NCBI GenBank assembly: GCA_021399435.1
Contig: JAJTUP010000050.1
Coordinates: 405,168 to 469,167, forward strand
Source: Diaporthe sp. PMI_573
Lineage: Eukaryota > Ascomycota > Sordariomycetes > Diaporthales > Diaporthaceae
Length of the DNA: 64,000 nt
Reading direction: 5' to 3'
Shown here in pieces: positions 346-52,547 of this stretch (the first letter of the stretch is position 1; every line of letters starts with the position of its first letter). The position numbers were made by a program, and so were the translations under genes. The notes beneath the pieces were generated by a model. The model saw only the letters and a program-made list of their open reading frames with translations. It searched no databases and was not told the origin of the DNA.

Positions 346-1590
346 ACCGATCCCCGAAGTACTTGCGCATGAGAGGACTGTCAAACAGGCGCCTACACGA
401 CGACAGCGCTCCCACGACTGCGTGACTAATTCAAAACTCTTTGTTCACCAAATGCACAGATCTGTGAAACAATCGAACAAAAATATGTTGCCATTCCGAA
501 GTGCGTACATCACAATGAGTTAGATTGTGGAGAGGGTGTTAGCCAAGGCACTCATTTCTTGCTCAGTGACCTCGAGGTTCAGGTGTGGGTGGAGCAAGCC
601 TGACGAAGACGGAGGAGCAACACAAGGATGTTGCTGTAGTTCTTTCCGACAATACCCGCACGGAGGTATTTGTTGAATGTGATTCTTATCCTTGATTCTA
701 AATCTATTGAATCGCCAACGGCCCGATAGGTATTTAAAATATGTATAGTTCTGATTTCGACCGCTATCCCTCCTGCCCTGGCTTTCTTAATGTGAGAGCT
801 GCTGCCTTGTTCCTTGTTAATGGCAGGATGTTACGTTTTATGATAATTATAATATGTCGAGAGGTCAGGGGAAGATGCTGGGCAAAGATTGCTTGAGGGC
901 AGATCAGGATCTGAACATTCCGTGCTATGTTACGATTGATACCTAACTACATTGTGATTCCAGTGCGTCTAGCCACCCATCTTATAACCTGACCTGCCCA
1001 TCCCTCATGGATCTCGATGCACGCTGGCCTGAGCGAGGCTCAGCCCTGACTTGGGCGCCATATGGGCCTGAGCGGTGCTGCGGTGCCTTTCGCCGATACT
1101 ACGGTGCCCTTCACCGGGCCTCCGACGGGCCCGAAGTGCTGCCTTCCAACATAATATGATGTATCTTAAATGATCTTTTCTTCTCTTGATTCCGTGCTCG
1201 CTGTATATGTATCGCGCCTCTAACGACTCTTCGTCCATTGCCTCTATGGCATCATCTACTTAGCATCTATCGATATAGCTCAATGAAGGCTTCGTCTACA
1301 TTCAATGTTCCCCGGTCATTCCACTGCTCTTGCTCAGTAATCTATTATAACTGCACTTTCCGAGCGAGGCAGAATTTTGCCTCCAAACCTGCCCAGCAAC
1401 ATCGGTTTAAGGCAATACCTTGCGAAAGGTCGGAACCGTCGACTTAATGTGCTGACCCAGACGTATCGACCAGTTGCCAGAGAGAAAGGTTAATTGTTAA
1501 CTTCTCCACCCGAAGTTGCTTTAACTAATAAAGTAGGCAAAGACTGACTTTATGGGTCTCAGTGTGCTAATAGAAAAGGTACTACACGAC
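346..1590. other. Intergenic stretch, no supported gene
   Basis: No reading frame here has convincing composition or splice structure. Bases 1010-1150 form a short GC-rich patch with imperfect repeats around 'gggcctgagcgg' and 'cggtgc', surrounded by AT-rich sequence; this looks like decayed repeat material. Nothing else stands out. Confidence 0.5.
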
Positions 1591-2001
1591 TTAACTGTTA
1601 TTACCCTTGGGGAGGTGTATTGTTGCTTGTCTCCATAGATACGCGTAAGTTTCTAAAGCATCGCGGGTCCAGCTTTCACAATCGGGATAAAGCCTCAACA
1701 TGGGTCGGATATTGGCAAGGCATTCTTTAAATATATTTTTCAGCCTTATCGCTGCCTGGTGGTTTGCCGTTGTCGGTTTATCGTTGTATCTACGCGACTG
1801 GATCTTGAGGAGGAAAAGTATATAAATGGGAGTGCTATGTCGTCCGTCCTTTATCATTTCCCTTTTAAGTGCTCTATACACATACAGTTCTCGGAGGCTT
1901 CGAATCTCGGGATTCCTCTCGAGAAAAGAAGCCAGCCAGCGTTTTCCGAGTGGTTGTGGCCTCGGCTGAGAGTCGCTTACCCGAGCCGCGAAAGTCCTCA
2001 T
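1591..2001 (-). pseudogene. Possible pogo-type transposase DNA-binding fragment
   Basis: The frame starts with ATG at 2001 and gives 136 aa. Near residues 17-36 it reads PLGKRWLASFLERNPEIRSL, which resembles the CENP-B-type HTH region of Tc1/pogo transposases (compare GTKWARRFVDAQPSLKT in the intact element at 10.9 kb). The remainder has no DDE motif and looks like random drift. It lies only 15 bp downstream of the sirtuin-Ulp1 stop codon on the same strand, so a spliced extension of that gene is the alternative, but no domain supports it. Confidence 0.35.
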
Positions 2002-2016
2002 TTCGAGCCTAGTTAT

Positions 2017-5000
2017 TTACTCCGTCGACAAGGAACAGTCCTCGTGAATCTGATGGTCTCTGAGATATTGCTGTATCAGGACCTCAATGTGTTGTCCAGC
2101 CGCGGCCATGTCAACTTCCTCCACAGCCCTTCGTAGGCACACGAGACGCTCACGCCTCTTTATTTCTTCACCCCTTTGGCAAGCGATATTTTTCGTGACG
2201 TGCTTGATCTTGCTTTCAAGTTCGCTCCTCAAGACGACATTGCTCTTCAAACCCTTGGCAGATTTAATCATATCTCTGAGGAGAGTCTCGTCATGTTGCA
2301 GTTCGTGCAGGGGATCTTGCAATTGATCGGTCAGAGAGGATCGTGCATTTTCAATGGCCGACATCAGGGTTGTCAGTTGTTGAAGAGCTGCCTGAAACGA
2401 TCGGAGCTTGGAGACGCAGGCATCAATGTGGTAATTTGCGGCCTCTTGCTGTCGTTGTAAAAGTTTTCTCATGGTGCTCTGCAACTCTCTGTTACCCTGA
2501 AGCGTATTCGCAGAGGCTAAAGTCGCACTAGCCGCATCCATATCGTCTGGGGATAAACCGAGGAATTCATGTTCATATGCGACTTTGTCAGAAAGCATAT
2601 CCCAGAGCCGTAAAGGGCCTGCGACCGGAACGTCGCTATATTGGCCGCCACGGCTAGCCACGTGCACAAAATTGACGTTTGTACCTAGAGCGAGCAGAAA
2701 CAGTCGATAAAGCTTGCTGTCGATCGAGGATGGCGCGTCTATACCAGCAGCATCGTAGGCAGTCATAATGATACAACAGAGGCCGCAGTCGTAAGAATTG
2801 CTCTGCTGCAGGATTTTGGTCGGATGTGCAATATGCCAGCCTTTGTCCCAGTCATTGTACGGGTCTGGGAGCCGATTGGTGACAAAACGGCGAGCTAATT
2901 GCAAGCACTGGTCATTATTGTCCTCAGTTGGCCCGTTTGGATCAAACAGCACAGCCTCACGTGGACCCACGTAAATTCTGAGCAACACCCAGTGCTTGTT
3001 GTTGACGTTGATTTGGAGGGCAAAAGTACTAGACTCGTGGCACGGGAGTGTCCATTCAGTTGAGTCCTGACAGTCCCACGCGCCGCTGGACATAGTACTG
3101 ATTTGAGAGGCAACGGAGGTAAAATACTCCGCAAAAGTGTTCATAAGGCAATCATTGAGCCATCCACTCTGATCATTGTTGCATTTAAGCCTCTCGAGAT
3201 CCTGTGGAAGGAATGGCAGCAGCGGTGCGAAAAGATACGGCTGCGCTGGGCCTGCAGTATCTTGAGTTAAGTCGATCGGATCCTGCTGACTGGTAATGTG
3301 GGAATGTCTCGTAATTCCAACCTTAGTAGGGCCCAGGCACTGTGTGTGTTGTGGTGATAGTTGTGCTGGTGTGGATGGTGTGGATCGGTGGGCGAGCGAT
3401 TCAGGCAATATTTTGCAAGAAGATGGCGTGTCACTAGCCTTTTTCTCCAAGTCCCTCACGCCCCAATTTTGGCTTGGACTGCTACCTGTGGCTAGCTCTG
3501 ACGTATTGCCATTGGGTCCTTCGGAGTAGCTGTGACCGCCTCTTTCAGAGGCGGGATTAGCGACTGAAGTAGCTTGATTTGATCTGGACTTGGTGTAGGC
3601 TTGAGACGTTGACAGCTGTGGTGAGAGAGCTAGAGATGTGTTTGAATGTTTGTGTGTTGTCTCGGGTGATCGGAGGACACGAATCTCTAGTACATCCAAG
3701 TCAGCTGAAGGAACTGGAAAGGGCTGGATCTACAAAGTACCTTCTCTGAAATCAGCATCCTGCGGCTCAATTGTGAGGCGGTATTTGAGTTCAGAACTTT
3801 GCGCAAGACAACAAACTCGAGTAGTAGGATGTTGCTCGCACAGCCAGGCCACTCCCCCGCTCTGTTCGGCAGCCCTTTCACGGCGAAGAGCCTTTTGGAG
3901 TATGTTCCCATAGAAAGGAACAAAGTTGGCTTCACTAAGCCCAAGAGCCCCTATGTTCTTCCAGAACGCAGCTTTTCGTAATGAATGTATACCAAAGAAT
4001 AGAGCGACAACCTTGAGCTTGAAATCATCCGAACTTGTATCGATGTCAGAATGAGCTTTAGGATAACGTCCATGTGATCTCAACACCCATTTCCGCGTGA
4101 TAATCTCAGCGGTACGTCGAAGCTGGATTACAGCCCGAGGGGTTCCCCAATTATTGGTGTCGAACTCTGCAGTGACACAGTCACAGACGAGTTTGGGAGG
4201 CAGGTTTCGTATAACCCATGGCGCGAAATAGGCTGTTCCATCGTCTGAAGTGCCATCACTCCTGATCTCGTGTTGATCTTGGTAGTTGTGCAGTTCATCG
4301 ACTTTTAGATCATTGCTGCTGCACTCCTCCCTCCCACCTTTGCGTTGATTGATTTTTCCGCTTTCAATACGTGCTTCGCAATACTGCTTCACCATGTTTC
4401 GCCAGTCACTTCGTAGCTTTTCCATCCTACCATGGGACGCTTTCATAGCCCCAGTATGCTTGATGTCTTGAATGCCTTTCCAGATGGGAGATTCTGGACC
4501 CTCGACTATTCGATGGTCTGTGGGTGAAGTGACGATTCTGAAATCCTCTTCTTCCTCTGCAACCTGAATGTCGGAAGTTGTACCAAGAAGATTGAGCTTC
4601 AAAGCAAAATCATCACACTTGCCACGGATAACAAAATTCCAGAGGTTGTTTGTTTCCTGGGGCGGAGGATCCACGTTCAGCCACGCTGTGAGTCCGTGCT
4701 TCTTTGAGCGTGTTGCCTGGCATAGCTCCCTCACAAGCTTTTTCACGCCCGGTATTGTAAGGGACGTACCGACCACAATAACGACGTTGGGGACAGAACG
4801 TAAGTCTGCTTGAGAGACTTTACCAATAGCTTCTGCATCCGGGCTAGGTCCGTGGTATAATACCACACGTGGCGTGAGACGTCCAATTCCATGGCTCCTT
4901 TTTCCATTCTGTTCTGTGCGAATCCGGTCATTCTCTGCGCATGCTTTACACAAAGGGGCCTCCGGCCCTTGGAAGAGCAATTTGTCAAAACCTTGAATGT

Positions 5001-5669
5001 GGCTGCATTTCGTACATTGTATCTTGTCGAGTCCACCATGAAGCTGTATTGTCACTGGCCAGGGTGCCTCCATATTGAGTGGTATATTAGTTGCCAGAGG
5101 TTGGATCGACGTGTCCAGGCAGTCAATATTCTGACTGTAGAGACGCATCAAGCGATCATCCTCAGCAAGGGCTTTGAGCGTCTCGTGAAAAGCAGTGGGA
5201 ATAGCATCTCTTGCTAGATCCGACAACTCTGTAATCATTTGGTGAAATCTCTCCGTAGACTTCTTGTTGTTGTAAACTGAGATGTCAAATAGGTCTTCGC
5301 CTTTGCCTTTCACCTTTGACTTGGCCTGGAAGGTCTTGAACAGTCCTTCCTTGGATCGAAAATCGGGGACTGCTAAGTTAGTTAGTTAGGGATACAACGT
5401 GCCACTGTCGATATGAAAGAAATAGACTTGCTTCCTGCGGACACGGAAATCCCGGCTCCAGCAACCACCACAATTTTTTTCTTGCATTGCAAAGCCTTCA
5501 GCAAACGCTGCAGAGGAGCACTGGTTGCAGTATCCTGGTGGTCAAGATCGATTTGTACAGCACGTTGATGCTGGTCATTCGCAACTCTTCGCTTTTTGTA
5601 AGGGGGCATTCCGTCGGTCTTAGCTATGATCTCGCCGCCACTCAGCTGAGATTTCTCAGAACCGTCCAT
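2017..5669 (-). CDS. Sirtuin-Ulp1 fusion protein (Hst3/4-type deacetylase plus SUMO protease)
   Basis: Model: exon 1 5669-5432, a GC-AG intron 5431-5370, exon 2 5369-2017; 1,197 codons including the stop, in one frame apart from a TAG at codon 626 (3732-3730). Residues about 60-370 are an Hst3/Hst4-type sirtuin, an NAD-dependent protein deacetylase: GAGIS at 71-75, PDFR at 81-84, QNID at 159, catalytic His 190 (LHGG), zinc cysteines 198/201/220/223, and GTSL. Residues about 800-970 are a Ulp1 (C48) cysteine protease: His 872 (KHW), Asp 889 (FDPNG), Gln 935 and Cys 941 (YDCG). Between them sits PIDLTQD, like a VIDLT-type SUMO-interaction motif. A coiled-coil-like tail follows. The Ulp1 frame has no ATG before residue 822, inside its own catalytic domain, so it cannot start alone. 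Expected nuclear. Domains are seen; a joint function is inferred. Confidence 0.8.
3730..3732 (-). other. In-frame TAG between sirtuin and Ulp1 halves
   Basis: This stop is the only interruption in the shared frame from 5369 to 2017. CAG to TAG is a C-to-T change in a CpA context, the classic RIP substitution, so a nonsense mutation is the simplest reading. A 27-nt GT...AG stretch at 3740-3714 is a multiple of three and would remove the stop, but it is shorter than usual fungal introns. A longer intron using another donor or acceptor, or stop-codon readthrough, cannot be excluded. Confidence 0.85.
5370..5431 (-). other. GC-AG intron in the sirtuin exon junction
   Basis: The exon ends GCAGGAA and the intron begins GCAAGT, the standard consensus for the rare GC donor. 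The 3' side has a CTAACTAAC branch-like stretch and ends TTAGCAG. Splicing restores SAGIPDFRSKEG, which is strongly conserved in sirtuins, so the non-GT donor is well supported. Length is 62 nt. Confidence 0.85.
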
Positions 5670-6041
5670 TCCTACACTACTCGTCGTAAACCTGCGGTGG
5701 ATGGTGTTGTGTGGTGGTTGTAGTGGCCCGTGACAATGAGCGGAGGGGATTGCGGGGTTGTTCCAGCAACCGGCAGCTATCGGAAAATTGCGGATGTCGG
5801 GTTACTTATATAAGCGAACGTGAACGCTGAAAAAAGAAATTCCGACCCCTTGTTCGGTGGTCAACGGCCAACGTCCCGGTCAACATACATACGCCCACCC
5901 AGTACAAGGAATTAAGCGTGCAACCTACTATAAATTCTTGTACCCCCATTTCCGGCCGGGCCCCCATTCCGGCCACCGCCGCTTCTCGAAGTTGCAAAGG
6001 GCATGTCTATCAAACTCAATGGCTGCGTATCTGAGAAAAGT
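5670..6041. promoter_or_regulatory. Upstream region of sirtuin-Ulp1, no clear gene
   Basis: This is the likely promoter side of the fusion gene. I see C-rich patches (ggccgggcccccattccggcc near 5955) but no clear TATA box, and no credible ORF. Confidence 0.35.
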
Positions 6042-6168
6042 GTGCCTGAGGCAGCAATGTGTCCATCACGACAAAACCAGCCCCCCTAACGGGAGGGGTC
6101 GCACTAGGGTACCCACACCAGACATTATCAATAACACAAAGTGACCACCCCATCAGTTGGACCCAAAT
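6042..6168 (+). repeat. Dispersed repeat family, copy A
   Basis: The shared block starts 'gtgcctgaggca', contains 'gacaaaaccagccccc' and ends near 'ccaccccatcagttggaccc'. It is related to copies at 15844 (same strand) and 34968-35119 (opposite strand). This copy is the most diverged of the three. It has no coding capacity; a MITE or a solo terminal fragment of a larger element is likely. See the findings. Confidence 0.7.
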
Positions 6169-6319
6169 TCTCTCCCACCCTATCATCCTATTCCTGATTT
6201 TGGAAATAAATTTCTTGATTCTTTGCTTCCAAGTATACGACTCTCTACCATTGACAGAATCGTCGGTCAAGATGGATGTTTTTAGTAAGCTTCGACTTTA
6301 AGCAGTCGTTAGTTAAGCT

Positions 6320-7870
6320 CGTGTGGGAGTTCGTGCAACTGTGGACAAGCTGATGATGAGGAAGCAATTAGCAGGTTATACACTGTCTACTTTTTCGCAT
6401 TGGCAGTATTTCTCCAGTTTTTTGCCAGCACGTCCCGCCAGTGACCGCCATATCTGTAAAGGAACTGCCAAACGTTACGGAACAAATGTCGGCCGGCGTG
6501 CTCACCGGTTCACATTTTGGAGCGCCCGTCATCCCGCTCGCTCTCCGCCCTCCTCCTGCTGCCAAACAGGCTTGGGCGGGAGGAGGAAACTATCCGGCGT
6601 CGAAGACAGCGGCCGTACGAAGCTATGCCGCGGCTCGGTTCCCTCGTCATGCGTCATGAATTTAGCCATGCGGAACAGGTCAAGATCGAGACCTGCCCTT
6701 ACAGGCCTGTAGGAGGACAGCCTCCCGGCGTCATGTGCTGGTCGACATTGGCGGCTGAGACGGAGAGGCGGCTTGCCGACCGCAAGGGCGACCCGCTCTC
6801 AGAGACTCAGCCTACGGGTCTTCGTTGCATCAAACTCGAAGGACTGGACATAGAGAAATGAAAAGCCGAATATGGCACTGGAGCGGCTCCAAGCCGCGGA
6901 GGACTGGCAACTCCCCAAGATTTTCATCGCGCTGTGCGCCGACGACGAAATCTCGAAAACGGGCTGGACGTGTAGAGGATGGTTTCGACGATTTGGCCGA
7001 GAGGAGGAGGCATGGTGGCCAGGTGGTTGGGCTTCTGGAGTTGGTTGCGTGTGGCTAAGGGGGACGCTCTGGTTCCAGCCTTTCAGAATCGACGGGTTTG
7101 AAGCCCTGTATTATGGTAAAGTGGCTGATGGCGACTGACCCTAGTCCTGCCGCGGAGGGAGGATGTGGGATTGCGGGCGAGAGCCGAGTCGGAGAAGCCG
7201 CCAGGGCCACGCAGAGGTCGAGGATGGCGGGAGTGCGGGAGCCGTCGTCGGCGGGCGACTTTGCCGCGTCGACCACAGCAAACCATGCAGCGGCGACCAC
7301 GCCGCTTTCTATCAGAGATGAAAGCGCCAATGAAAGCGATAGTCCCGTTGGCGGGGGTGCCTCGGGAGGAAATGCTGGCAGCACGCCTACCAAGTTCACA
7401 ATCTGACCCTCTAGACGTCGTCTGACGGTGGTGCGCCGGACAGTGGTGCACTGGGGCCCTAGGCTGACGCTTCGGAGGAGAATGCCGCATAGCTGAAGAG
7501 GCCGGAGGTTGAAGGAGAGCAGTGGTGGCGGGGGTGCTATCACTGCTATGCTCCAAGGTCGTGTCTGATGGAAAGGGGGAAACCCCTGGGTAGACAACGA
7601 CGACCTTATTAGTTTCGCCCTGTCGGCCCAGACAACGTCAACTTGAGGACGTATTTGGAGATGGCCCAGGTCAGCGGCGGATGTGCAGCGGATGCCGATG
7701 AGGTACGGCTGGCCAGTGGTCAAACACCATGTCCTGGTGCTATTTCAAGCGCCTCTAGAAGAGGCCCAGTCTCTGGAGACATGCGAAGATCATACCACTC
7801 AAAAAGCCCGGGATCATCTTCACCGTCCACCCTAAACTTCCCAAGCCATCGGGTTCGTACCCTATGACTA
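6320..7870. other. GC-rich island with open frames on both strands
   Basis: Bases about 6480-7560 are much more GC-rich than their surroundings, so long frames are open by chance on both strands. The longest is 7055-7723 on the minus strand (222 codons, opening with TTG and lacking a family motif); others lie at 6517-6861 and 6872-7138 on the plus strand. None has a recognisable domain or clean intron signals, and which of them, if any, is coding cannot be decided by eye. Confidence 0.35.
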
Positions 7871-7996
7871 GAATCGTCCAAACCCATTCAAAATTGCTGA
7901 CAGACATACATTCCCAACATCCATATATCCAATCTGGTCGCCATTATTTCCGGAAAACAGCTGCCAGTACACACTAGATAACCCAGCCTTATTGAA

Positions 7997-9682
7997 TTAT
8001 GCATCGGTCTCCTCCCTGCTGCCCGCCAAGAGCGGTTTGCGCCCATATACGGCAAGCCTAGGTGTCGGTCAACATTTGAACAACCCCTGACAAGTGACGC
8101 CGCCAAGGCTATAGGAAAAACTTACACAATATAGTAAAAATGGATCTTGGTGTCCTTCAAATCCTTCCTCACATCGACGAGAAACACCTCGACCTCCTCG
8201 ATCGTCCAGCCGAGTGCCTTAGTGAAGATGTTGATGGTCATGCCATGTATACCATCCAGGATGTTGGTCATCTGCATCAAACCCACAGCCTTCTCCCGCT
8301 CGCCCTTGGCCCACGGGTTCCCAGGGAGCGCAAACTTACGTTCGACAACATCCACGAACCCGGCCTGGATCATCTGGCTCTTGAATCGCGCCGCAGACCG
8401 TCCGCTACGCCCCACCCTCTCGACAGCGTCGAGGAACAGGCGGTTCCACTTCTCCAACGCCGTGCCCGCCAGGGAGCCGTCGATGCACTGGAACTCGGCG
8501 TAGTAGTCCTGGAACTCGGCCCAGCCGCCCGGGTTGAGGTTGTCGAAGCAGTAGCCGAAGATCCTAGGAAAGTTGCTGAAGGCGCCGATCATGAAGCGCG
8601 AGTGGATGTAGTCAAACTTGTGCGTGAAGATCCATTCGTCGTCGGCGTCGTCGATCTCGAACCGGCAGTTTGGCGGGACGTATTCGGGCTGGATCGGGCT
8701 GAGGTCGGTGCCCAGCACATCTGACGCGGGATTTTCGTTTGCTGTGAAGAGGGTGAGACGTGGTGTACCAAGGGACTCACTTACGGAGGACTCATCATAC
8801 CGAATTCTATACACCAGATTCCGGTTCCTGTACGGCTTCGGTCAGGACTGCTCATGAGAATGACGCCCTCCCGTCTGCTTACCGGTGCCAAGATCGAGTA
8901 CGCGTGGCGGGTTGTCAACTGGAGCGAGGGCCAGTTTTCCGAACAACGCGACAGCGATAGAGTGTTGCAGATCTGATATTGTTTAGTATACTGAGCCCTC
9001 GGTAGCTGGTGTGCAAGACATTGCCACTTACCAAGACGCTCTTGTTCTGACTGTTTTGGTCAGAGTGCTCAGACAATATCAGGAAGTGGTACTCTGCCGA
9101 TCAACTCACGATGTCGTTTGGTAGGAAATATTCTTCTCTCGAGTCAGCAAGCATGGAAGGCCTAGGTTAAGGGAGGGAGCAACTGACTTCCTTCTTTATA
9201 CTTATGAAATGTCCGTCCGTACTCCTCGACAAACTGGAAGACGCTCGAGCTCACGGATACACTAGACGACCTGAGAGAAATGAGCGTTGGATCAGTATTA
9301 GGAATGATGTTGATATTCACGTACGCCCGTTCAACATCTCCGATGGAGGAGTCTGCGTCGCTACTGTCGTCCACCTAGAGAGTCTCCGTCAGGGCATCCA
9401 CTGCTCAAGTGTATTGCGGCAACTCACACTTAATCCCGTAGAGAAGACACTCGGAGGCCCAACCGAGTCATTGTCGTTGACATCTTCCTGCGACTCGCTG
9501 GGCGGCTGCTGCGGCTGGACCTCGACGGGTTCTGCAGCGACTGCATGACTGGCGCTGGCGCCGGGCTCTCCCGGTTCCATGGTCTCGGGACGGGGAGCGT
9601 CGGCGGCAGCGCCGTGGGGCGCTTCTGAGACCTGGGCAAGAGGGCCGCACTGCTTGGTCATGTCATGGCCCTGATCAGCCAT
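7997..9682 (-). CDS. LaeA-like SAM-dependent methyltransferase (nine exons)
   Basis: Exons, read 5' to 3': 9682-9428, 9374-9325, 9270-9188, 9135-9110, 9050-9032, 8972-8883, 8827-8801, 8741-8126, 8057-7997; all introns are GT-AG and the spliced length is a multiple of three (408 aa). The N-terminus (MADQGHDMTKQ) is Pro/Glu-rich and disordered. It is followed by the family block FQFVEEYGRTFHKYKEG-KEYFLPND-EQERLDLQH, the SAM-binding LDLGTGTGIWCIEF, then VLGTDLSPIQPEYVPPN and a VYGRKP-type C-terminus. Methyltransferases of this class resemble the secondary-metabolism regulator LaeA, but most paralogs are uncharacterised and act outside the velvet complex. No biosynthetic backbone gene is adjacent. 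Every splice junction restores a conserved block, so the gene looks intact. Confidence 0.9.
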
Positions 9683-10597
9683 CCTCACCTGCCCTTCGGC
9701 ACGAGTCGACTGCAACCCGACGCGGGGTTTCACCACCACTGCCACAGCCCAAGACCTCCTTTGGATAATGCCGGCGTGTTTGCCCAAGTTCCCGTGACAT
9801 CGAGCAATGGAGACGGCAGAGCGACGCGACACAGTTGCCCTTGGACCAGACGAGCACTAGAGCAACGGAGCGTCGTCTTATGTTGATTGAGCCTCCACCT
9901 GGCTGTTATGGACTGAGTCATGTTCGGCTGGACGCATTGAAGCCCTAGCCTATTCCGTACTAGCGGTGCCACTGTCCGTATTCAGAACCAGCGGCGTGTG
10001 GGGCTAGGATTGCCTTGGCGACCAAGGCACTCGGGTATATTGCGTTACGGCTGCCCTTGTTCCCTTCCTGTTCATGTACAAACTGGTCGGGTGGTCGAGA
10101 TATGCTTATATACTAGAACGGCCAATTTTGAGACAGAGAGAACCTAAATCGTGGCCATGACGTTCAGGCAAAGGCCGATGGCGCCGGTGCCGACACAAAT
10201 CCTAGTGAGTCGTCGGCCGCAGGCGGCGCCGAATATGTGGAGTGCATGGGCGACGTTGCGGGCGTGTAGGCGGCCACTACAGCAAATGTATCGGATATAG
10301 GGGTAAAGTCCAGTTGTCCAACAGAGACCCCCTTCGTACTTAGAGGGCTCCCAACTAAAGTAGCTGTCATCGGGATGGAACCATACGATGCCGTAGAGGC
10401 ATTACTACTGGAGCTTGCCCCAGAGACTATATCAGATACGCAATGATGATTTGCTTGCCGTTGGACTTTGATTGGCCTTTTCCCAGTCGTTCGGCCGTCA
10501 TTGGCTTCTTGCTCCAATACTCGGATGGGAGCCCGTCGTGTGTGGGCCAGACCTGCGTATATCGATATCCACCGAAATTCTGGCCCTTATATCGATA
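9683..10597. other. Upstream region of the methyltransferase; weak ORF at 10164-10517 (-)
   Basis: The minus frame at 10164-10517 is open for 117 codons, Ser/Thr/Pro/Ala-rich, opens with TTG rather than ATG, and is closed upstream by a TAA close to the insertion point of the pogo element. It may be the truncated end of a gene broken by that insertion, or chance. The rest of the interval shows nothing supported. Confidence 0.3.
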
Positions 10598-10725
10598 ACG
10601 TGGTTGGACAGTCAGCCGGTCAGGACAGATGCCCGGTCACTTTTGCTAACTCCACCAACTTTAGTCAACCCCAGCACCCACCCAGTGCAATAGAATCAAT
10701 AAAAGCTGGCACCAATTGGTGCCAA
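10598..10725 (+). repeat. Left terminal inverted repeat of the pogo element
   Basis: Begins acgtggttggacagtcagcc after the TA at 10596. It matches the reverse complement of 12795-12922 with one mismatch. Confidence 0.93.
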
Positions 10726-10917
10726 TTGCTTCAAATTGCTTATTTCTAATTGATTTGGGTAATTTAGAGTGGTGGTATGGTTGCAGTGCCAGTCTGAAAA
10801 TTTAAAGTTTGGGTGAGCAGGTCTGTTTTTGGTGCAGATCGCGTCCCCATTTTTCGCGTTAGTCTCGCATCACCCTACCTACTTAAATATTCAACACGCT
10901 AGAAGTCAACATCTACA

Positions 10918-12600
10918 ATGCCAACCTACTCAAAAGAAGAAAAAGTCAAACTAGCGCTTCAGGCAATTGAGAAATCTAAAAAAAATCAAAAGAAACCCTT
11001 AAGTGCACGTCAAGCTGCACGGATTTTCAGCGTTCCACGCAGCACAATAATCGACAGGATGAACAACCGACCACATCGCGAAGAATCACGCGTCGAAAAG
11101 CATAAACTTGACCCAGTCGAAGAGCAAACGCTTATTCGATATATAATTGAGCAAGATGCACGAGGATTTCCAATGCGACTTTCTGGTGTGGAAGATATGG
11201 CCAACCTCTTGCTCGCGTCGCGTGATGGCAAGCCTGTTGGTACCAAATGGGCACGACGCTTTGTGGATGCACAACCAAGCTTGAAGACCAAGTTTAATCG
11301 GCCATATAACTACCAGAGGGCTCTCTGCGAAGATCCAGAGGTTATTGGGAACTGGTTCCGGCTCCTCCGCAACATGATGGCCAAATATGGGGTCCTAGAC
11401 GATGACCTATACAACTTCGACGAGACTGGCTTCATGATGGGTGTGATAACCGCAACATTGGTTGTTACACGTTCTGATCGACACGGAAAAGCCAAATCTA
11501 TTCAACCTGGAAACCGGGAATGGGCAACAGCTATTGAATGTATCAATGCGAAGGGCTGGTGTATCCCGCCGTTCGTGATCGTCCAGGGTGCCTACCACCT
11601 TGCCAACTGGACAACGGAGTCTGGCTTTCCACCAAGCTGGATAATCAAGCCTACTCCAAATGGGTGGACAGATAACGAGACTGGTCTAGAATGGATTCGG
11701 CACTTCGACAAGCATACAATCAAGCGGACCAAGGGTAAATACCGGATGCTTGTCCTAGATGGACATGAAAGCCATATATCAGCGGAGTTCGAGCAATACT
11801 GCAAAGAGAACAACATTATCCCTATTAGCATGCCACCGCATTCATCTCATCTGCTCCAGCCATTGGACGTTGCATTGTTCTCGCCATTGAAGCGTGCATA
11901 CGGCGATGAGATCAACCTCTTCATCCGGGCCTCGATCAACCACATCACCAAGTCCGAGTTCTTCATTGCGTTTAAGGCAGCCCACGACAAGGTCTTTACG
12001 GAAGAAAACATGAAAGATGGGTTCAGAGGGGCTGGTATTTCTCCATGGAACCCAGACTCTATCATTTCTAAGCTGGATATCCGCCTACAAACTCCGGTGC
12101 AATCCCTCCCCGTGTCACCATCGAAATGGGAATCACAGACACCCTCTAATGCCCACCAGACTGTCCAGCAATCAAGTTTCATTCAGGGCAAGATCTCTAA
12201 CCATCAGGGCAGCTCCCCTACACCAATTATCCAGGCAGTTGAAAAGTTCACGAAGGGTGCACAAGCAATGGCGCATCAGATCACTCTTTTGAATGATCGG
12301 GTCCGTACCCTTGAGAAGGCTAATATTGGGCTCGCCAAGCGCCGGAGAGCTAAAAGAAGTCGGGTACATCTTGGAGGGGCACTTAGTATTGAGGATTCCC
12401 AGGCGATAATCGAGGAAAAACAGAAGGGGAAGCGGCCAGCTGGTGAAATCGGTGGTGGCGCAGAGGAGGCGGACCGCGGCGGACCGAGCAAACGACGATG
12501 TGGCAACTGCGGCGAGACTGGGCATTATGCAACAACTTGTCAGAAAGATGTAGAAGGGTCTAGTCAGTCAGATTCTGAGTGTATAATAGTACATTTTTAA
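10918..12600 (+). CDS. Fot1/pogo-family transposase, 560 aa
   Basis: An intronless ORF from ATG at 10918. Residues about 5-50 are a psq-type HTH (ARIFSVPRSTIIDR); 60-130 a CENP-B-type DNA-binding domain (GTKWARRFVDAQPSLKTKFN); 140-380 the DDE core with Asp 168 (FDETGF), Asp 281 (LDGHESH) and Asp 317 (LQPLDV). The DD35D spacing fits the pogo/Fot1 group. Cut-and-paste transposition is the expected activity. The C-terminus is basic and carries a CCHC zinc knuckle (CGNCGETGHYATTC, from residue 528). Length is usual for fungal pogo enzymes. A remnant matching residues around 345-355 (TKSEFFIAFKA) occurs at 23.09 kb. Confidence 0.95.
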   Translation: MPTYSKEEKVKLALQAIEKSKKNQKKPLSARQAARIFSVPRSTIIDRMNNRPHREESRVEKHKLDPVEEQTLIRYIIEQDARGFPMRLSGVEDMANLLLASRDGKPVGTKWARRFVDAQPSLKTKFNRPYNYQRALCEDPEVIGNWFRLLRNMMAKYGVLDDDLYNFDETGFMMGVITATLVVTRSDRHGKAKSIQPGNREWATAIECINAKGWCIPPFVIVQGAYHLANWTTESGFPPSWIIKPTPNGWTDNETGLEWIRHFDKHTIKRTKGKYRMLVLDGHESHISAEFEQYCKENNIIPISMPPHSSHLLQPLDVALFSPLKRAYGDEINLFIRASINHITKSEFFIAFKAAHDKVFTEENMKDGFRGAGISPWNPDSIISKLDIRLQTPVQSLPVSPSKWESQTPSNAHQTVQQSSFIQGKISNHQGSSPTPIIQAVEKFTKGAQAMAHQITLLNDRVRTLEKANIGLAKRRRAKRSRVHLGGALSIEDSQAIIEEKQKGKRPAGEIGGGAEEADRGGPSKRRCGNCGETGHYATTCQKDVEGSSQSDSECIIVHF

Positions 12601-12794
12601 GCGGTCTGCAGCGGACCGCCCAATTACTTGGTCTGGATGGTGTAGATTGAGGTTAATTCTGCACGGCTCAAATGCTCCATTTTGGTGGGGAAGCCGATTT
12701 TCCCACCAAAAGTCGGCCACTTTAGACTGGCACTGCAGCCACGCTAACCTCTCTCAATTGACTAAGTCGATTGAAATTGAGCAATTGAGACTAG

Positions 12795-12922
12795 TTGGCA
12801 CCAATTGGTGCCAACTTTTATTGATTCTATTGCACTGGGTGGGTGCTGGGGTTGACTAAAGTTGGTGGAGTTAGCAAAAGTGACCGGGCATCTGTCCTGA
12901 CCGGCTGACTGTCCAACCACGT
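12795..12922 (-). repeat. Right terminal inverted repeat of the pogo element
   Basis: Reverse complement of the left repeat; ends ...ccaaccacgt followed by TA at 12923-12924. Confidence 0.93.
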
Positions 12923-12924
12923 TA

Positions 12925-16140: not shown

Positions 16141-16431
16141 TCCATCCCTGGTGTTGGAGAAGTAGCATGGATGATAAGTGTTGCATAGGCAGCCACAGGA
16201 AACGGTGTCACACGATTACGCGTGAATCGTCAGAACAGTGTTACAGGTCTGTTGCAGGGTCAGCAGGTCTAGTATCATACCTCGCCTCTTTACCTATAAG
16301 AAGGAGGAGAGCAAGAACAACCAGCATGAGAAAGAGACAGGAGACAATCATTCCGATCATCATTAGATTATGAGTTACCGGTACCTAGTGAGAGCGCGCG
16401 GTCCGGCAGTCTGCTGCCTCGACTTTCAATA

Positions 16432-17535
16432 TTGAATTATGAGTTCATCTTCAAAAGTTATCACTGGAGTGAACGACGGAAGCTCAGTCTTTTGAACCGG
16501 GACAAGGAGAGTCTACGGCGAGATCGCAGCGCATCGAACTCGGTGATTGTAACTTGGCAGATCTCATTCGAATCTATCCGTTCCGAGCGGCCATCAGCAG
16601 CTGATCTACTTTCGCTGATGAGTTTTTTCGACCGCCAGGGAATCCCGGATTGGCTGGTGCGGCCGCCTGACAACATCGTGAGCCATGAAGGCGACGCAGA
16701 TAAGGGCAAAGGCGATGTGAGCGATGACAGCGAGAGTGAAGACGATGACAACAGTGATACTTCCAGTGCTAGCGACGCTTCTGAGGACTCAGCTGCGCAG
16801 ACCTTTGAGGACGACCTACTAATGCTTCGAAACTACTGCCTCATATCCTTGAACAAGACAGGGGACATATTTGAAATGCACAACCTCGTGCAACTAGCTA
16901 TGAGGAAATGGTTGAGCGTCGATAAGAGAACAGAAACGTTCAAGGAACAATTCATTGATCGGATAGCGCGTGCGTTCCCAACAGGGGAGTACAGCAATTG
17001 GGCCAAATGTGAAATGCTGTTTGCCCATGTGGACAGATTGGTCGAGCACCGTCCACTGGGTGGAAAGCCGCTAGAAGAGTGGGCGCAGGCCCTGTATAAT
17101 GGCAGCTGGTATGCGCAGGAGCAAGGCAGATACAGCTTAGCGGAGGTAATGGCTAAGAAGTCGCGGGATGCTAGGATTGAAGCACTAGGGGATGAGCATC
17201 AACTAACCTGGTATAGCGTGTCAATGGTTGCTGAAGTCCTTCGATGTCAAGGGAAATATAAGAAAGCTGAGAAGCTGTTTGTGGAAGTGATGGAGACTTT
17301 CAAGCAGAAACTCGGGCATACCCATCCTGACACGCTCACCAGCATGGCCAACCTGGCATCAACATACTGGAACCAAGGCAGATGGGAAGAGGCCGAGAAG
17401 CTGGAGGTGGAAGTGATGGAGACTCGCAAGCAGAAACTCGGGCATGCCCATCCCTCCACGCTCACCAGCATGGCCAACCTGGCGATCACCTGGTACTCTC
17501 AAGGACGTATCACTGATGCTATCAACTTGATGGAC
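16432..17535 (+). pseudogene. NLR (STAND) gene fragment: end of NB-ARC plus TPR repeats
   Basis: From about 16483 the frame reads LSLLNRDKESL-RRDRSASNSVIVTWQISFESIR, then ADLLSLMSFFDRQGIPDWLV, the winged-helix end of a fungal NB-ARC domain. An acidic low-complexity insert follows, then HNLVQLAMRKWL and kinesin-light-chain-type TPRs (QKLGHTHPDTLTSMANLAS, YWNQGRWEEAEKL and a near copy). Such proteins act in non-self recognition and heterokaryon incompatibility. The P-loop half is missing: sequence before 16480 does not match. The 3' side ends in the next TPR, where LINE sequence begins at about 17535. The gene is therefore broken at both ends. Confidence 0.85.
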
Positions 17536-18115
17536 TTGTGCATCTTGCGAATGCGGGCTAGCATCAGAGACAGTGGAACACTTCCTATTCCGCTGTGCAA
17601 AATGGACCGCGCAACGGGAAGGCATGTTGCGATGCTCACAGGCAAAGATGGGAAACCTATCATACTTCCTGGGGGGAAAGGCGGCGTCTGACGGTGACAA
17701 ATGGACACCAGACATGCGGGCAGTACGCGCGACGATCAAATTTGCCATTGCAACGGGGAGGCTTGACATGGACCAGAAGCCTCAGGCACACTAACTATTC
17801 AGATTGAATCCTACTAACATCATACAGTCTCATTTTGGCAGACCGTGCTTCAGCTGCTGAGGATAGGATGCTGAACACTTGGAGAAATTGGCCTTCAAGC
17901 AGGCCTGTCACTGCATATACATCAGATTGGACCAGTCAGTAGAGTGAAATTGTGGGGCTTCGGGTGATTATGGAAGAACCGTACGAAACGAAAATAGCTT
18001 AGCGCAAAGGCCCTCTGGGGTGTGTCCCCCCGGGCGAAATAAAATCCATCCATCCAACCCCCTCAGACGTGTGTCCCCCCGGGCGAAATAAAATCCATCC
18101 AACCCCCTCAGACTG
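17535..18115 (+). mobile_element. 5'-truncated Tad1-type LINE (3' end only)
   Basis: The frame cysteine-rich around CECGLASETVEHFLFRCAKW (from about 17545) is the zinc-binding end of fungal LINE reverse transcriptases; it continues through GNLSYFLGGK and WTPDMRAVRATIKFAIATGRLD and stops near 17794. The 3' tail contains tgtgtccccccgggcgaaat followed by aaaatccatccatcc, the tailing repeat of this clade. The tail unit of about 45-50 bp is present twice (about 18018-18067 and 18068-18115). Only the last roughly 580 bp of the element are present, as after incomplete target-primed reverse transcription. Confidence 0.85.
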
Positions 18116-23135: not shown

Positions 23136-23334
23136 CTCTCCGCCCTGGTATCCCTTTTTGTTATAAAAAGTCTTGATTATCATCTTGGCCCAAATCTCCT
23201 CGCATATCACAAGCCCCCTCCCCTTTAACATGGGTTTCGCTGCTAAATGTATACTGTTCCTTGCCTTATCATAGATTTGCACTGTTTAACTACATTGATT
23301 CCGATAGATATGATCGTTTTGCGTAGCGATGTGA

Positions 23335-23580
23335 TTGATGTTTGTGCAGAGAGCGTACAACCAGGAACGCAGAAGCAGGCTATCGAATGATGATGGTACC
23401 TCCAGTCCGACGGCTATATGCCAGGCAGCCCAGACACTGTGTAAGCGAGAGTCATCTGGATCGAATGTATGTATGCAGGGATCTGGTTGCGAAGTCTTCC
23501 ACTCCTCGTTCCAATTGTTGAAAGGCTCCGGCAGCCAATGACGGACAAAGCGGGAAGCCAGCTCCTCGCACTTTACTGAA
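23335..23580 (-). pseudogene. Ulp1 protease relic
   Basis: On the minus strand one frame reads CEELASRFVRHWLPEPFNNW, then WHIAVGLEVPSSFDSLLLRS. This follows the order of the fusion protein's Ulp1 region (LQLARRFVTNRLPDPYNDWD ... AAGIDAPSSIDSKLYRLFL) with clear divergence. The stretch holding the catalytic Gln and Cys is replaced by unrelated residues, and no upstream sirtuin is present. A neighbouring frame at 23590-23640 (FTCVKVKLELSSAVI) may be the strand preceding the catalytic His. Confidence 0.65.
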
Positions 23581-23599
23581 TTGTATTTTGATCACCGCG

Positions 23600-35119: not shown

Positions 35120-35313
35120 GTCTGACAACTTTCAAGAGATGTCAGTTGGCTTGGCGTACGAGAACCATTCTAATCATTTACGTCAGCGTGACGAAATCCA
35201 CGATTGATGTCAACTCTACTGGATATATAACCTTCACGCTTTGAATTGAGCCAGTGAAGAAAATATAACAAGTCCTGCTCGTCAAAGATTCCCTAGACGA
35301 ATTGTATCTAATC

Positions 35314-37753
35314 ATGTCACGATCCGTCGAACCGACTGTCATGGATTCGCTCCGTTCGAAGGGCGAAGCTGGCCTTCTGGATGCCATTGATCTGCTGAGA
35401 TGCCAGGGAATCAGCCATTACATATCTCTTCCTCAGCTGATTGTATGTGGTGATCAATCTTCTGGCAAGAGCTCGGTCTTGGAGGCCATCTCCGGCATTC
35501 CCTTCCCGACAAGAGACAACATGTGCACACGATTTGCGACAGAGGTCATTCTCCGTCGGGCACCCACAACCGGAGTCTCGGTGGCGATTGTACCAAGCCA
35601 GAGCAGGACAGATTCGGAACGCCGGTCCTTGGAGAATTTTCATGAGCCGTTGAAAACTCTCGAGGAATTGCCTCCCTTGATCGAGAAGGCAAAGGTGGCA
35701 ATGGGATTGGCAGAGATGACCAAAGCCTTTGCGGAAGATGTTCTTCGGGTTGAGATCTCTGGACCCAAGCGTCCCCATCTTACGATTGTCGACCTACCGG
35801 GGCTAATACACGCAGAGAACAAATTACAGACGGCCGCAGATGTGAATATGGTACAGGAGATGGTGAGGTCCTACATGGCGAACGGGCGCAGCATAATCCT
35901 GGCCGTGGTTTCAGCCAAAAACGACTACCCCAACCAAATCGTCCTGAAAATGGCTAGGGATGTTGACAGGCGGGGACACAGAACTCTAGGGATCATCACG
36001 AAACCAGACACGCTCCCTGCCGGATCCGAGAGTGAGGGGTCCTTCGCAAATCTGGCGCGGAACCAGGACATCGAATTTCGCCTCGGATGGCATGTTCTTC
36101 GGAACAGGGACTACGACAACAGAGACACCTCGTTATCGACGCGGGATTCCATAGAGATGGACTTTTTTTCGAAGGGGATCTGGGGAGAGTTTCCGAGGTC
36201 TGCAGTTGGGATCGACGCTCTGAGGATACGACTGAGTCGGGTTCTATTGGACCAGATTCGAAACGAGTTACCCGATCTGGTTGAAGAGATACAACTATCC
36301 ATCCAAGAAACGAGAGCTAGGCTTGAGCGGCTCGGTACTCAGCGACGTACGCTTGACGAGCAGCGCGCATTTCTCCTCAAATTCAGCCACTCGTTTCATC
36401 TCCTCGTCAAAGCTGCGACTGATGGGACATACGGCGACAGTTTCTTCGGAGACTGCAAAACGAAGGAGGGCTATAGCAGGCGGCTGCGTGCGGTGATTCA
36501 GAATCTTCATCTTGAATACGCGGCGAATATGCGTGCCCACGGACATCAGAGGCATTTCGTTGATGATCAGCAGGCAGATTCTCTGGGCAACCCGGAACTA
36601 GGGACGCAGCCGGAGGTCGTTTCCCGGAGTCGTTTTCTAGGGGATATTTCGGATGCTCTGAAGCGGGCGCGGGGCCGTGAGTTGCCTGGGATGTACAACC
36701 CATTGATAGTGGGAGATCTCTTCTTTGAGCAGGCAGAGCCGTGGGAAAAGCTGACAGAGCGCCATCTGAGGAAAGTGTTGGATATAACGCGGGCATTCTT
36801 GGATATGGCGGTGTCGCATCTCACAGACGACGTTACTGCGGGGGCCATTCTCGACGATGTGGTCGGTCCCGAAATGGACAAGAGATGGACGGAGCTAGAA
36901 GCCAAGCTTCAGGAGCTCATCACGCCGTATCAGAAAGGGCATCCTATCACGTACAACCACTACTTCACCGAAACGATCCAGAACGTACGGCATCGCCGGA
37001 TGGAAGAAGAGGTGTCCCGAAGATTATCAGCATTATATGGCGTTCAGCAGATCACATCACTGGAAGAACTTCCAGCGCGGAAGGTGAAAATCACCAACCT
37101 CGTCACGGCCTTGTCGCGGCGAAACGAAACCGACATGAACTTCTACGCTAGCTCGGAAATTTTAGACTGTATGATGGCGTTCTATAAGGTAAGCCAAGGG
37201 AGATACTTCCCCGGAAGGTATTACTAATCGGGCAATTCAGGTGGCTTTGAAGAGCTTGGTTGATAATGTCGCAATCTACGCGGTCGAGTTACTCCTTGTC
37301 CAGAAGCTGCAAGAGTTGCTATCCCCATCAATGATCATGGAGATGGACGCCGAGCTATTACAAAGGATTGCAGCTGAGTCGCCAAGTGCCGCTGCTCAAC
37401 GAGAGCAATTATCTCGAAAGCTTGAAGTTCTCATGACTGGAATGGAGACTTGCCGTCGGTATGCTAACCAGAGTGCTCGGAGTAAGTCGCTTTTCCTATA
37501 GTAAACATTTGGAGCGCCTGGTAGTGAAGGGTTAGGTTTTCCATACTCTACTAACTATCTAGGAGCGTCTACTTGGGACGACTCAGGTTCAGACGACAAA
37601 TCCATCCCGACGCTTCCATGGTCTGTGACCCCGAACCGAGTACAGCTGACTGAGCTGATGTATGCTAGCACGATCGCAGGTCGGTCGAGGACGGAGTGCC
37701 GATTTCCAGCGTTACAGAAGCTGCTCAGTCAAATGCTGGTGACTGGTCTATAA
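35314..37753 (+). CDS. Dynamin-like GTPase
   Basis: Exons 35314-37188, 37241-37481 and 37563-37753 give 768 aa. The G domain is complete: P-loop GDQSSGKSS (about residue 46), switch Thr in TRDNMCTRFATE, DLPGL (G3) and TKPD (G4). A middle domain follows, then a GED-like helical region (VALKSLVDNVAIYAVELLLV, LLQRIAAESPSAAAQREQLS). There is no PH or Pro-rich domain, so it belongs to the Mx/Vps1-like fungal family expanded in filamentous ascomycetes; specific roles of these paralogs are mostly unknown. The start ATG precedes SRSVEPTVMDSLRSKGEAGL. The last exon is uncertain: another frame (37696-37878) with a KKKKKK run also looks coding. Confidence 0.88.
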
Positions 37754-47599: not shown

Positions 47600-48030
47600 G
47601 GACACAACAGACAGTGAGCCGTTCTTCAACATCATCCACCTTGTCCAAACGCTCCATTGCTTCCATATCTCTTATATGGCGCTCCTGGTCTCGAGATTTG
47701 AGAACGTGTTCGTACTGCACGACAGCGAGTTAGACTACTTTCAATACAAGTACCCATGAGTGAGACACCACTAGGGCCTCTAGACACTTACCATCGACTT
47801 CAGCTAGACACCGTCTCAAGTTGCTTGTTCACTGTGCCGATATAGCCGTTAACCTCTGCAGATATACCATCCATGTCTCGTTGGAAGTCAGCATGATCGT
47901 CTGTGAGCTGACTTGGCCACGAAGCCATAGCATTGTCCCCATGTTTGCGGATGTTCTTCAAGGTGTCTTTGGTATTATTGAGGATGTTCTATGCATGCAG
48001 AAGTTTGCAAGTGAGAGCAAAAAGCTGCTG
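47600..48030 (-). pseudogene. Coiled-coil gene fragment, 5' end replaced
   Basis: Two minus-strand blocks read QLFALTCKLLHASNILNNTK, HADFQRDMDGISAEVNGYIG (48030-47830), and, after a probable intron ending gtgcag, YEHVLKSRDQERHIRDMEAM and DKVDDVEERLTVCCVL-stop (about 47725-47600). They look like the helical end of a larger protein. Upstream, at 48033, the sequence switches abruptly to a Ulp1 relic in the opposite orientation. Confidence 0.45.
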
Positions 48031-48032
48031 CA

Positions 48033-48097
48033 CTGAGGACAACAATGACCAATGCTTGCAATTAGCTCGCCGTTTTGTCACCAATCGGCTCCCAGAC
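48033..48097 (+). pseudogene. 65-bp Ulp1 relic, near-identical to the fusion gene
   Basis: These 65 bp match the reverse complement of 2863-2927 with two differences, both transitions, and encode EDNNDQCLQLARRFVTNRLP as in the fusion protein. Neither flank continues the match. Such a short, fresh sliver points to recent copying, for example filler DNA at a break repair. Confidence 0.9.
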
Positions 48098-51170: not shown

Positions 51171-51209
51171 CTCTAACACAAGCCAGAAGACAGCTTAAGG
51201 TTATCGGCG

Positions 51210-52010
51210 TTGCTTCGTGATGTGCGGCGCGTCATTCTGAGTCATTGCTCCGTTATGGATGCATCGCCCCTCCAGGTCTATTGTTCCGCTATCGTCTTTG
51301 CCCCAGAGGGGAGCGTCGTCCGAAAGACGTTTCGTGACCAGTTTCCGACCTGGCTTTCCTTGTTACCGCAGGTGGATTCGGATTGGGATGCGTGTCAACA
51401 GACGCTCGAGGGCCACAGCAGGTCAGTTATCTCAGTCGCGTTTGCAGACAACGACAAGACGCTCGCATCAGCGTCCCAGGATGGGACCATCAAGCTCTGG
51501 GACACGATGACAGGCGGCTGTCGTGCGACGCTTAACGGCTCTAGTAGTTGGATTCTCAAAATCGCGCTTGCACACGACGGCAAGACGCTCGCGTCGGCGT
51601 CCGACGATGAGACCGTCAAACTCTGGGACACGGCGATAGGCGACTGTCGTGCAACGCTCGAGGGCCATAGCGGTGCAGTCTGGTGGGTCGCGTTTGCACA
51701 CGATAGCAAGACGCTCGCGTCGGCGTCCCCCGATCGAACTATCAAGCTCTGGGACGTAGCGACAGGCAGCTGCCGAGCAACACTCGAGGGCCATAGCACG
51801 CAAGTCTGCTCGGTCGTGTTTACACACGACAACAAAACGCTCGCATCTACGTCCGAAGATGGGACCGTCAAGCTATGGGACACGGCAACAGGCAGCTATC
51901 GAGCAACACTCGAGGGCCATAAGAGTTCGGTCTGCCCGGTTGCGTTTGCACACGACAGCAAGAGGCTCGCGTCGGCGTCCATAGATGGGACCGTTAAAAG
52001 GCTGATGAGT
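51210..52010 (+). pseudogene. HET-E-like NLR fragment: WD40 array
   Basis: The frame begins with the linker usual before the repeats (PLQVYCSAIVFAPEGSVVRK, FRDQFPTWLSLLP), then gives five WD40 units of 42 residues (TLEGHSRSVISVAFADNDKT, LASASQDGTIKLWDTMTGGC and copies). The strong similarity between units is typical of NWD/HET-E/D proteins, whose repeats evolve by concerted exchange and decide allorecognition specificity. The NACHT and N-terminal effector domains are missing upstream. The sixth unit breaks at about 52000 and a hAT end follows. Confidence 0.88.
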
Positions 52011-52011
52011 C

Positions 52012-52547
52012 ATGAAGAAGCGACGCACGTATCGGAATCCCTTTGACGAGTATCGTGAAGAATCTCGTCCTGCCCCAACTCTATTACAGCCACCTTCATC
52101 GATGACTCCCTCACTGCAAGCCGAGGACGTGGCTGGTAGTTCACACATGCTGTTAGCGATGAATACAGCGATTGGTTCCGTGACGTCCACAAGTCTGACC
52201 AGAATGTCCTAGATCCTGTTAGCTATTGGTATGAGAGGCGGGAGGAGTATCCACGACTGTCGCAAATGGCTCTCGATGTGCTTTCTGTCCTTCCTATGTC
52301 TGCTGACGTTGAGAGACTGTTTTCAACATGTGGGCGAATGGTTCGAAACGACCGGGCTAGGCTGGATGCTAATACAATCGGGATGACACAGACGGTGAGA
52401 TCATGGCTTTGTGGAGGATATATCAACAGCACGGAGAAGCTTCTTGAAGAAGTCAAGGTACCAGGGACTGATCTGTTGGCTGAGTTGAGCTTTGCGGAAG
52501 CCCGGGAGGCAACAGGGGGGATGATCACGTGTACTGTTCCTTTATAG
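52012..52547 (+). pseudogene. hAT transposase C-terminus (dimerisation domain)
   Basis: After a frameshift near 52170, the frame reads YWYERREEYPRLSQMALDVL, SVLPMSADVERLFSTCGRMV and DRARLDANTIGMTQTVRSWL, the hAT C-terminal dimerisation region. The catalytic core is missing. It directly cuts the WD40 array. Confidence 0.85.

Follow-up and report, generated by a model that had tools for sequence, protein, structure and literature searches.

Both acetyl and SUMO marks are erased in heterochromatin and during replication stress, as a rule by different proteins. The sirtuins Hst3 and Hst4 deacetylate histone H3 lysine 56 (H3K56) in yeast and affect H3K56 acetylation in Beauveria (PMC10846017). In other fungi, Ulp1 genes have been located on accessory or mini-chromosomes (PMC8146201, PMC10779208), and ULP1 is among the domains enriched in the genes unique to Fusarium zanthoxyli (PMC11110190). 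Here, we describe a gene at positions 2017-5669 of a 64,000-nucleotide stretch of the genome of Diaporthe sp. PMI_573 (contig JAJTUP010000050.1, positions 405,168 to 469,167; hereafter the window) in which a sirtuin and a SUMO-protease-type domain are encoded as a single intact chain. A first-pass annotation of the window had named no precedent for this pairing. Searches of the open-licence literature listed no paper on a sirtuin-Ulp1 fusion, but the pairing is already in the databases, where P0121 is a public hypothetical protein carrying both Pfam domains.

The gene lies on the minus strand and consists of three exons, with its ATG at 5669-5667, its TAA stop codon at 2019-2017 and a predicted product of 1,178 amino acids. 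Its parts, in the order of transcription, are as follows:
5432 to 5669, minus strand: exon 1, with the ATG, a KKRRV nuclear-localisation-like motif (residues 25-29) and the nicotinamide adenine dinucleotide (NAD)-binding motif GAGIS (residues 71-75)
5370 to 5431, minus strand: intron 1, 62 nt, GC-AG borders, branch-like CTAACTAAC; its excision creates the sirtuin motif SAGIPDFRS
3741 to 5369, minus strand: exon 2, the remainder of the SIR2 domain and the middle region (about residues 345-625)
3687 to 3740, minus strand: intron 2, 54 nt, reading GTACTT...GCTGACTT...TAG and carrying an in-frame TAG at 3732-3730
2020 to 3686, minus strand: exon 3, the linker, the PIDLT motif (residues 759-763), the Ulp1/C48 catalytic domain and a long tail
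2017 to 2019, minus strand: stop codon TAA, its last two bases outside the homology with the related copies L009 and L010, which have TGA there

As intron 2 is a multiple of three in length, the sirtuin and protease halves share one reading frame. This part of the two-exon model of the first-pass annotation holds, but a third exon has to be added, with the 54-nt intron removing the in-frame TAG. The first methionine of the protease frame is at 3144, within the catalytic domain (GWLNDCLMNTF), and the protease half therefore has no start of its own, as had been claimed. The related copy L022 has an equivalent of intron 2 with the same GTACTT donor, a branch-like CAGCTGAC and a TAG end; at 53 nt it is not a multiple of three, so that its flanking frames connect only via splicing. 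The public gene model P0121, which describes the copy on contig C37, has the identical intron 2 junction (...DADFREEIRVLRSPE...). The position of intron 1 is kept in L026 (58 nt) and, by eye, in L013, L014 and the stand-alone sirtuin gene L027, and these four also share the layout of exon 1 with the window gene (by eye). With an even spread of both families, about 0.025 same-strand SIR2-Ulp1 pairs within 2.5 kb would be expected in the genome, which is an underestimate if the families cluster. An assembly chimera was ruled out because the same sirtuin-middle-Ulp1 chain occurs on two contigs (C164, that of the window, and C37) and as P0121.

Both domains pass the Pfam cut-offs in one chain at the positions first proposed: SIR2 at residues 71-285 (E 8.6e-24, 84.9 bits against a cut-off of 24) and Peptidase_C48 at residues 848-926 (E 1.4e-7, 32 bits against 20.7). 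The earlier observation that both catalytic centres are kept was also borne out. When aligned to yeast Sir2 (2hjh), the sirtuin part has GAGIS (71-75), QNID (159-162), His190, the zinc-binding Cys198, Cys201, Cys220 and Cys223, and GTSL (280-283), and the active-site set of the protease part is complete, with His854, Asp871 (17 residues apart), the oxyanion Gln917 and Cys923 (6 apart). Both distances fit the spacings of yeast Ulp1. The linker motif, first reported as VIDLT-like, reads PIDLT and is located 20 residues ahead of the protease domain. We take (I/V)DLT to be a SUMO-interaction motif and KKRRV to be a nuclear-localisation motif.

The sirtuin appears to be of the Hst4 type, an assignment that follows the source-given names of its matches and a tree that holds no yeast Hst3/Hst4 references. 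A protein search with exon 2 gave 705 proteins, of which the best 120 were listed; four of these are named hst4, the nearest being P0006 from Cytospora mali. Apart from the gene's own copies, the SIR2 part reaches at most 65% identity over the aligned half among the matches listed. In the sirtuin tree, it clusters with L027 and L013, apart from L016, L031 and L032. NCBIfam models matched the sirtuin part only as bacterial deacylases far under the cut-offs and the protease part not at all, and no Rfam family matched the window when gathering scores were applied. The middle region is matched at 18 places in the genome, fragments counted. Two single-sequence AlphaFold models were poor (mean predicted local distance difference test scores of 43.5 and 41.3); in one of them, the C-terminal tail is probably helical.

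The gene belongs to a large set of related sequences. Profile searches list at least 31 SIR2 places and at least 17 C48 places in the genome, counted exon by exon, and similarity searches found 54 places for the Ulp1 half and 43 for exon 2, from which 47 loci, some of them overlapping, were taken and a subset read. A second copy, L009 on C37, matches 3,331 bp of the window at 99.88%, with four differences, one of which changes an amino acid; its protease is intact and its model P0121 (hypothetical protein F5883DRAFT_512549) has 1,094 amino acids and both Pfam domains. L014 and L015 combine an intact sirtuin with a Ulp1-like part that has no catalytic Cys and an altered His motif, in uninterrupted frames of 813 and 806 amino acids after exon 1, with no intron between the parts. 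Their Ulp1-like parts show 30 and 29% identity to the window half (E 1.9e-31 and 3.5e-30), and the Pfam scan of L014 did not detect this part. L011 has the opposite condition, a truncated sirtuin of another sirtuin clade together with intact protease motifs in a single frame of 706 amino acids, both parts of which pass Pfam. L013 consists of a sirtuin and a Ulp1 remnant. L022 is 54% identical in protein to the window gene over 758 codons; by eye, its N-terminus is of the sirtuin type, but the sirtuin itself is missing. With a further stop in its linker, L022 may be a pseudogene. In L026, the sirtuin half (95% DNA identity) is cut where a copia-like frame with a weak gag_pre-integrs match, under the cut-off, starts. 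Other members are Ulp1 proteins with no sirtuin match within the DNA retrieved around them (L017-L020 and L023) or Ulp1-like proteins without the Cys (L035-L039 and L044). A second group of extra sirtuins, with frames open or broken, was seen at L031 (C5), L008 (C105) and L032 (C191), which cluster with L016 and L011; further genes or relics of this group occur on C79 and C143, judged from the match list alone.

An (I/V)DLT motif just upstream of the protease is found in eight of the nine rows that keep the Cys (the window, L010 and L017-L023) and in none of the eight Cys-less rows (L014, L015, L035-L039 and L044), three of which (L014, L015 and L038) still have His in the aligned column. The exception is L021, the frame of which begins 32 residues before the protease. 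As the rows are related, and the window and L010 near-identical there, the contrast amounts to far fewer than 17 independent cases. Among proteins outside this count, L011 has IIEI, L042 has IDLT at its C-terminus and L043 has none. The protein at window 62284-63192, which by eye has a C2H2-like end (no Pfam match), shares its N-terminal part with the Cys-less Ulp1 proteins and matches the N-terminus of L039 most fully (49% over 273 aligned positions).

The absence of a homologous fusion from other genomes had been named beforehand as speaking against the proposal; such fusions were found both on another contig of the same genome (P0121) and in another organism (P0173). The read-through of both halves matched 62 proteins, among which P0121 was the only match shown to span most of the query, and a search with the Ulp1 part, limited to partner lengths of about 617-1,963 amino acids and with no Ulp1-only search made at ordinary length, gave only P0121. 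Since each protein search scored only the approximately 8,000 candidates with the most words in common, fusions of distant relatives may have escaped notice. Twelve protein matches were read, eight of them chosen mainly for length, and P0173 is one of these eight. This protein of 880 amino acids, from a JGI source and named NAD+-dependent protein deacetylase SIR2, matches SIR2 (E 6.1e-12) and C48 (E 5.3e-5). It is not from the present genome, where its sirtuin finds best long matches of 45-47% identity and its Ulp1 part finds none; a plasmid search with it gave no match. Two further proteins of JGI source, probably from metagenomes, are P0001 (87%) and P0003 (63%), on contigs of 2,627 and 3,651 bp. 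In both, the end of the sirtuin continues into the middle region, and the protein terminates in an apparent read-through of intron 2.

Whether such fusions arose once or several times was approached with trees of both parts. The first trees held 11 sirtuin rows and 15 Ulp1 rows, the latter without L009, L010, L012, L024 and places with multiple stops; the approximately unbiased (AU) test used 13 Ulp1 rows (near copies L020 and L037 omitted), and a larger Ulp1 tree had 17. In the Ulp1 tree, L014 and L015 cluster with L035-L039, which lack the Cys, whereas the partners of the window are L021 and L022. Forcing the Ulp1 parts of the window, L022, L021, L014 and L015 into one clade, a grouping named after the tree was seen, is 19.6 log units worse (AU p 0.0017). 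On the protease side, two or more fusions are the simpler reading, and one old fusion with later losses is possible. L011, with its different sirtuin clade, and P0173 would add to the case for repeated fusion; in the 17-row tree, both are unplaced on long branches.

Constraint on the modules was estimated as the ratio of nonsynonymous to synonymous substitution rates (dN/dS, NG86 method). Between the window and L022, the ratio is 0.37 for the middle region and 0.38 for Ulp1 with the tail, and between the window and L021 it is 0.42, which suggests moderate constraint on the middle region and the protease.

The flanks of the gene differ from those of its copies. Homology with L009 and L010 reaches no further than the first stop-codon base (2019), and homology with L026 ends four bases before the ATG (5673), with the introns nonetheless kept. 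The neighbouring feature is:
284 to 2007, no strand assigned: 3' neighbour, a segment also present in L046 (C168), where it matches as two pieces of 99.5 and 99.8% identity

Past the equivalent of base 2007, C168 continues with a Tc5-type transposase frame and the window does not. The reading frame of L046 that is cut by this break matches the DNA-binding domain of Tc5-type transposases, and the 3' flank of the window copy is, by these matches, a broken Tc5/pogo-type element. At L010 (3483-6764, minus strand, on C183), a hAT-like transposase piece is in frame with a Ulp1 half that is 99.87% identical in DNA to the window over 1,542 bp, and the combined frame has 1,094 amino acids. Pfam gave no hAT match in L010 itself; its hAT label derives from 27% identity to L041, the C-terminal part of which matches Dimer_Tnp_hAT. 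In L041 and L040, hAT elements adjoin gene fragments. No inverted repeats of at least 40 nt enclose the window gene, and the three 12-nt pairs (92%) that do so within 1000-8000 are of chance size.

Taken together, we consider it fairly probable that this is a chimeric Diaporthe gene for a predicted bifunctional, nuclear eraser of SUMO and acetyl marks, and that it belongs to a large family in decay. The gene links a duplicated sirtuin, apparently of the Hst4 type and bringing its own first exon and intron, via the middle region and the SUMO-interaction-like PIDLT to a long-tailed SUMO-protease-type module. In the mechanism envisaged, KKRRV would lead to nuclear import and PIDLT would dock the protein on SUMO-modified chromatin proteins, from which the Ulp1 part could cleave off SUMO, while the sirtuin part could deacetylate the same protein or one beside it and the tail may provide self-association. 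Because Hst3 and Hst4 act on acetylated H3K56, this would be the first candidate substrate. Across the family, one or the other activity would often be lost. The intact fusion, part of a family in which such fusions form and break up, plausibly has a function, and the protein could offer a single molecule on which the order and interdependence of both reactions can be measured.

A wider proposal, which we put forward tentatively and would not yet rely on, is that the repeated fusion in fungi of a mostly Hst4-type sirtuin with Ulp1 (the window and L009, L014 and L015, L011, and P0173) represents a new class of dual erasers that bind SUMO and remove both it and acetyl groups in a single pass, and that copies then became specialised when one activity was lost. 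If so, H3K56-type deacetylation and desumoylation would form one functional step, for which stalled replication forks or silencing where the genome is rich in transposons are candidate settings. The occurrence of a natural fusion in at least two genes hints at a connection between deacetylation and SUMO removal.

Several results weigh against these interpretations. The deacetylase and SUMO-protease activities and the expression of the gene are predictions. The C48 match spans just 79 residues, the PDB matches of the protease are weak (SENP5 E 0.07, Ulp1 E 0.4), and the middle region has no fold recognised by Pfam or single-sequence AlphaFold. Among the copies found, only that of the window is complete: exon 1 is missing from the one on C37, two copies on C183 hold one half each, and in all other lineages of this genome one part is degraded. 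L023 retains the motif together with His and Cys, but its Asp is replaced by Asn. Estimates of dN/dS gauge the modules and not the fusion as such, and for the SIR2 half against L026 the ratio is 0.74 (domain only 0.64) at a dS of just 0.064, a comparison that is little informative because it involves few changes and one disrupted copy. The sirtuin tree does not reject a single fused clade of the window, L026, L013, L014 and L015 (p 0.111), nor one of the window, L026, L014 and L015 (p 0.054; both tests were run without L028, a near copy of L014). The separate origin of the L014 and window fusions therefore rests on the Ulp1 side, and recurrence within this genome is not proven. For P0173, SUMO is not certain as the substrate because structures of both the deubiquitinase and the SUMO-protease type match its protease part (the ULP_PROTEASE domain protein 6ups, E 6.8e-5, and OtDUB 8efx, followed by SENP1, E 0.0036), which may be a deubiquitinase.

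The halves could also have been brought together by chance through transposon-driven shuffling of fragments, leaving a chimera that is neutral or decaying. The pieces are indeed scattered, with many of the 54 and 43 places short or stop-bearing, the same Ulp1 half is joined in frame to a hAT-like piece in L010, hAT elements lie beside the fragments in L041 and L040, the window copy ends at the broken Tc5/pogo-type element, and one part is degraded or missing in L014/L015, L011, L013 and L022. Yet all 1,178 codons of the window gene are intact, both catalytic sites are kept, the dN/dS of the middle region and Ulp1 is 0.37-0.43, and the same two-domain fusion exists in another organism (P0173), which makes pure shuffling a rather unlikely account, albeit one to be taken seriously. 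A different origin in mobile DNA is that of an accessory gene which, like the Kaonashi Ulp1 genes of plant MULEs, lifts silencing from its carrier elements. Plant Vandal/MULE elements do carry transduplicated Ulp1 domains, linked in a review to anti-silencing VANC genes (PMC13317346), and Ulp1 modules adjoin hAT and Tc5/pogo-type elements at several of the present loci. These transposases belong to different families, however, with no single carrier seen, only the chance-sized 12-nt inverted repeats enclose the gene, and the window and its 99.9% copies share nothing past the stop codon; we regard this possibility as improbable.

The roles that the first-pass annotation suggested, in genome defence or silencing or as cargo of a mobile element, are at this stage speculative. 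For cargo, the enclosing repeats are the chance-sized ones and no DUF3435 place is listed on C164, but gene pieces do adjoin hAT sequences (L041, L040 and L010) and the 3' flank of the window copy is a broken Tc5/pogo-type element. At least 53 places of DUF3435, the Starship captain type, exist in the genome, mostly stop-bearing or fragmentary. Starship cargo was rejected since none of them is listed on the contigs of the fused copies (C164, C37, C77, C213 and C8), which may be incomplete. The remaining alternative, two separate genes, of which the first, for the sirtuin, would stop at the TAG at 3730 and the second, for the protease, would lie downstream, has the existence of that in-frame TAG in its favour. 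It was rejected, and is very hard to maintain, given the missing start codon of the protease half, the conservation of intron 2 in L022 with a change of frame, the splicing of P0121 at this site and the continuity of L014, L015 and L011 across both parts.

Further features lie elsewhere in the window and around the copies. A repeat of about 300 bp (window about 850-1155) lies between the two L046-like pieces; it has at least 38 other copies (97-100%) and is missing from the C168 segment. A short repeat at 6029-6169 has at least 41 other copies in the genome (79-86% identity). At 10596-12924 lies an element of the pogo type, which has inverted repeats of 178 nt (90%) and encodes a DDE_1 transposase in an open frame of 565 amino acids; most of this element recurs as a 97.5% copy upstream of L009. 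Coding fragments of Ulp1 occur at 23310-23582 and 47972-48097, the latter including 66 bp that are 97% DNA-identical to 2863-2928 of the fusion gene. Other genes in the window encode a TPR protein (16330-17691) with a DUF7779 match just under the cut-off, which may be a remnant resembling nucleotide-binding leucine-rich repeat (NLR) proteins, a dynamin-like GTPase (35269-37227) and a WD40 protein with four 126-nt repeats (51177-52046). At L009 (7123-7902) and L010 (2380-3159), the same frame of 260 amino acids adjoins the Ulp1 end, with IBR matches under the cut-offs in L009.

Compared with fungal Hst4/HstD sirtuins, the fusion gene has, by eye, the exon 1 layout and intron 1 position of the stand-alone L027. 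The basic C-terminal part with KQSTLSFG that is present in L027 and P0011 is replaced in the fusion by the middle region and the SUMO protease. With Ulp1/SENP proteases (Peptidase_C48), the protease part has in common the C48 match and the active-site His, Asp, Gln and Cys. By eye, L042 and L043 are the usual Ulp1 and Ulp2 and have no sirtuin in the frames read, and the protease of the fusion belongs to a separate, expanded and long-tailed family. P0121 shares intron 2 and both Pfam domains with the window gene but lacks the GAGIS motif because exon 1 is missing, and P0173 is more distant, with a Ulp1 part that is remotely similar, no match to the middle region and a beginning inside SIR2.

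Among mobile elements, a sirtuin has been duplicated in the context of the Starship Swordfish of Zymoseptoria tritici (PMC11231334); this sirtuin is of the Sir5 type according to that paper, which does not name Ulp1. A further parallel is with Kaonashi (KIU) of plant MULE/Vandal elements, in which many Ulp1 modules have likewise spread and been joined to other coding sequence near transposons (PMC6117577, PMC13317346). Kaonashi differs in that it belongs to plants and MULE elements and, in these sources, is not mentioned together with a sirtuin, whereas for the fusion gene no single carrier element was seen. The Diaporthe family may be the equivalent, in a fungus, of the way in which Ulp1 modules have spread with transposons in plants.

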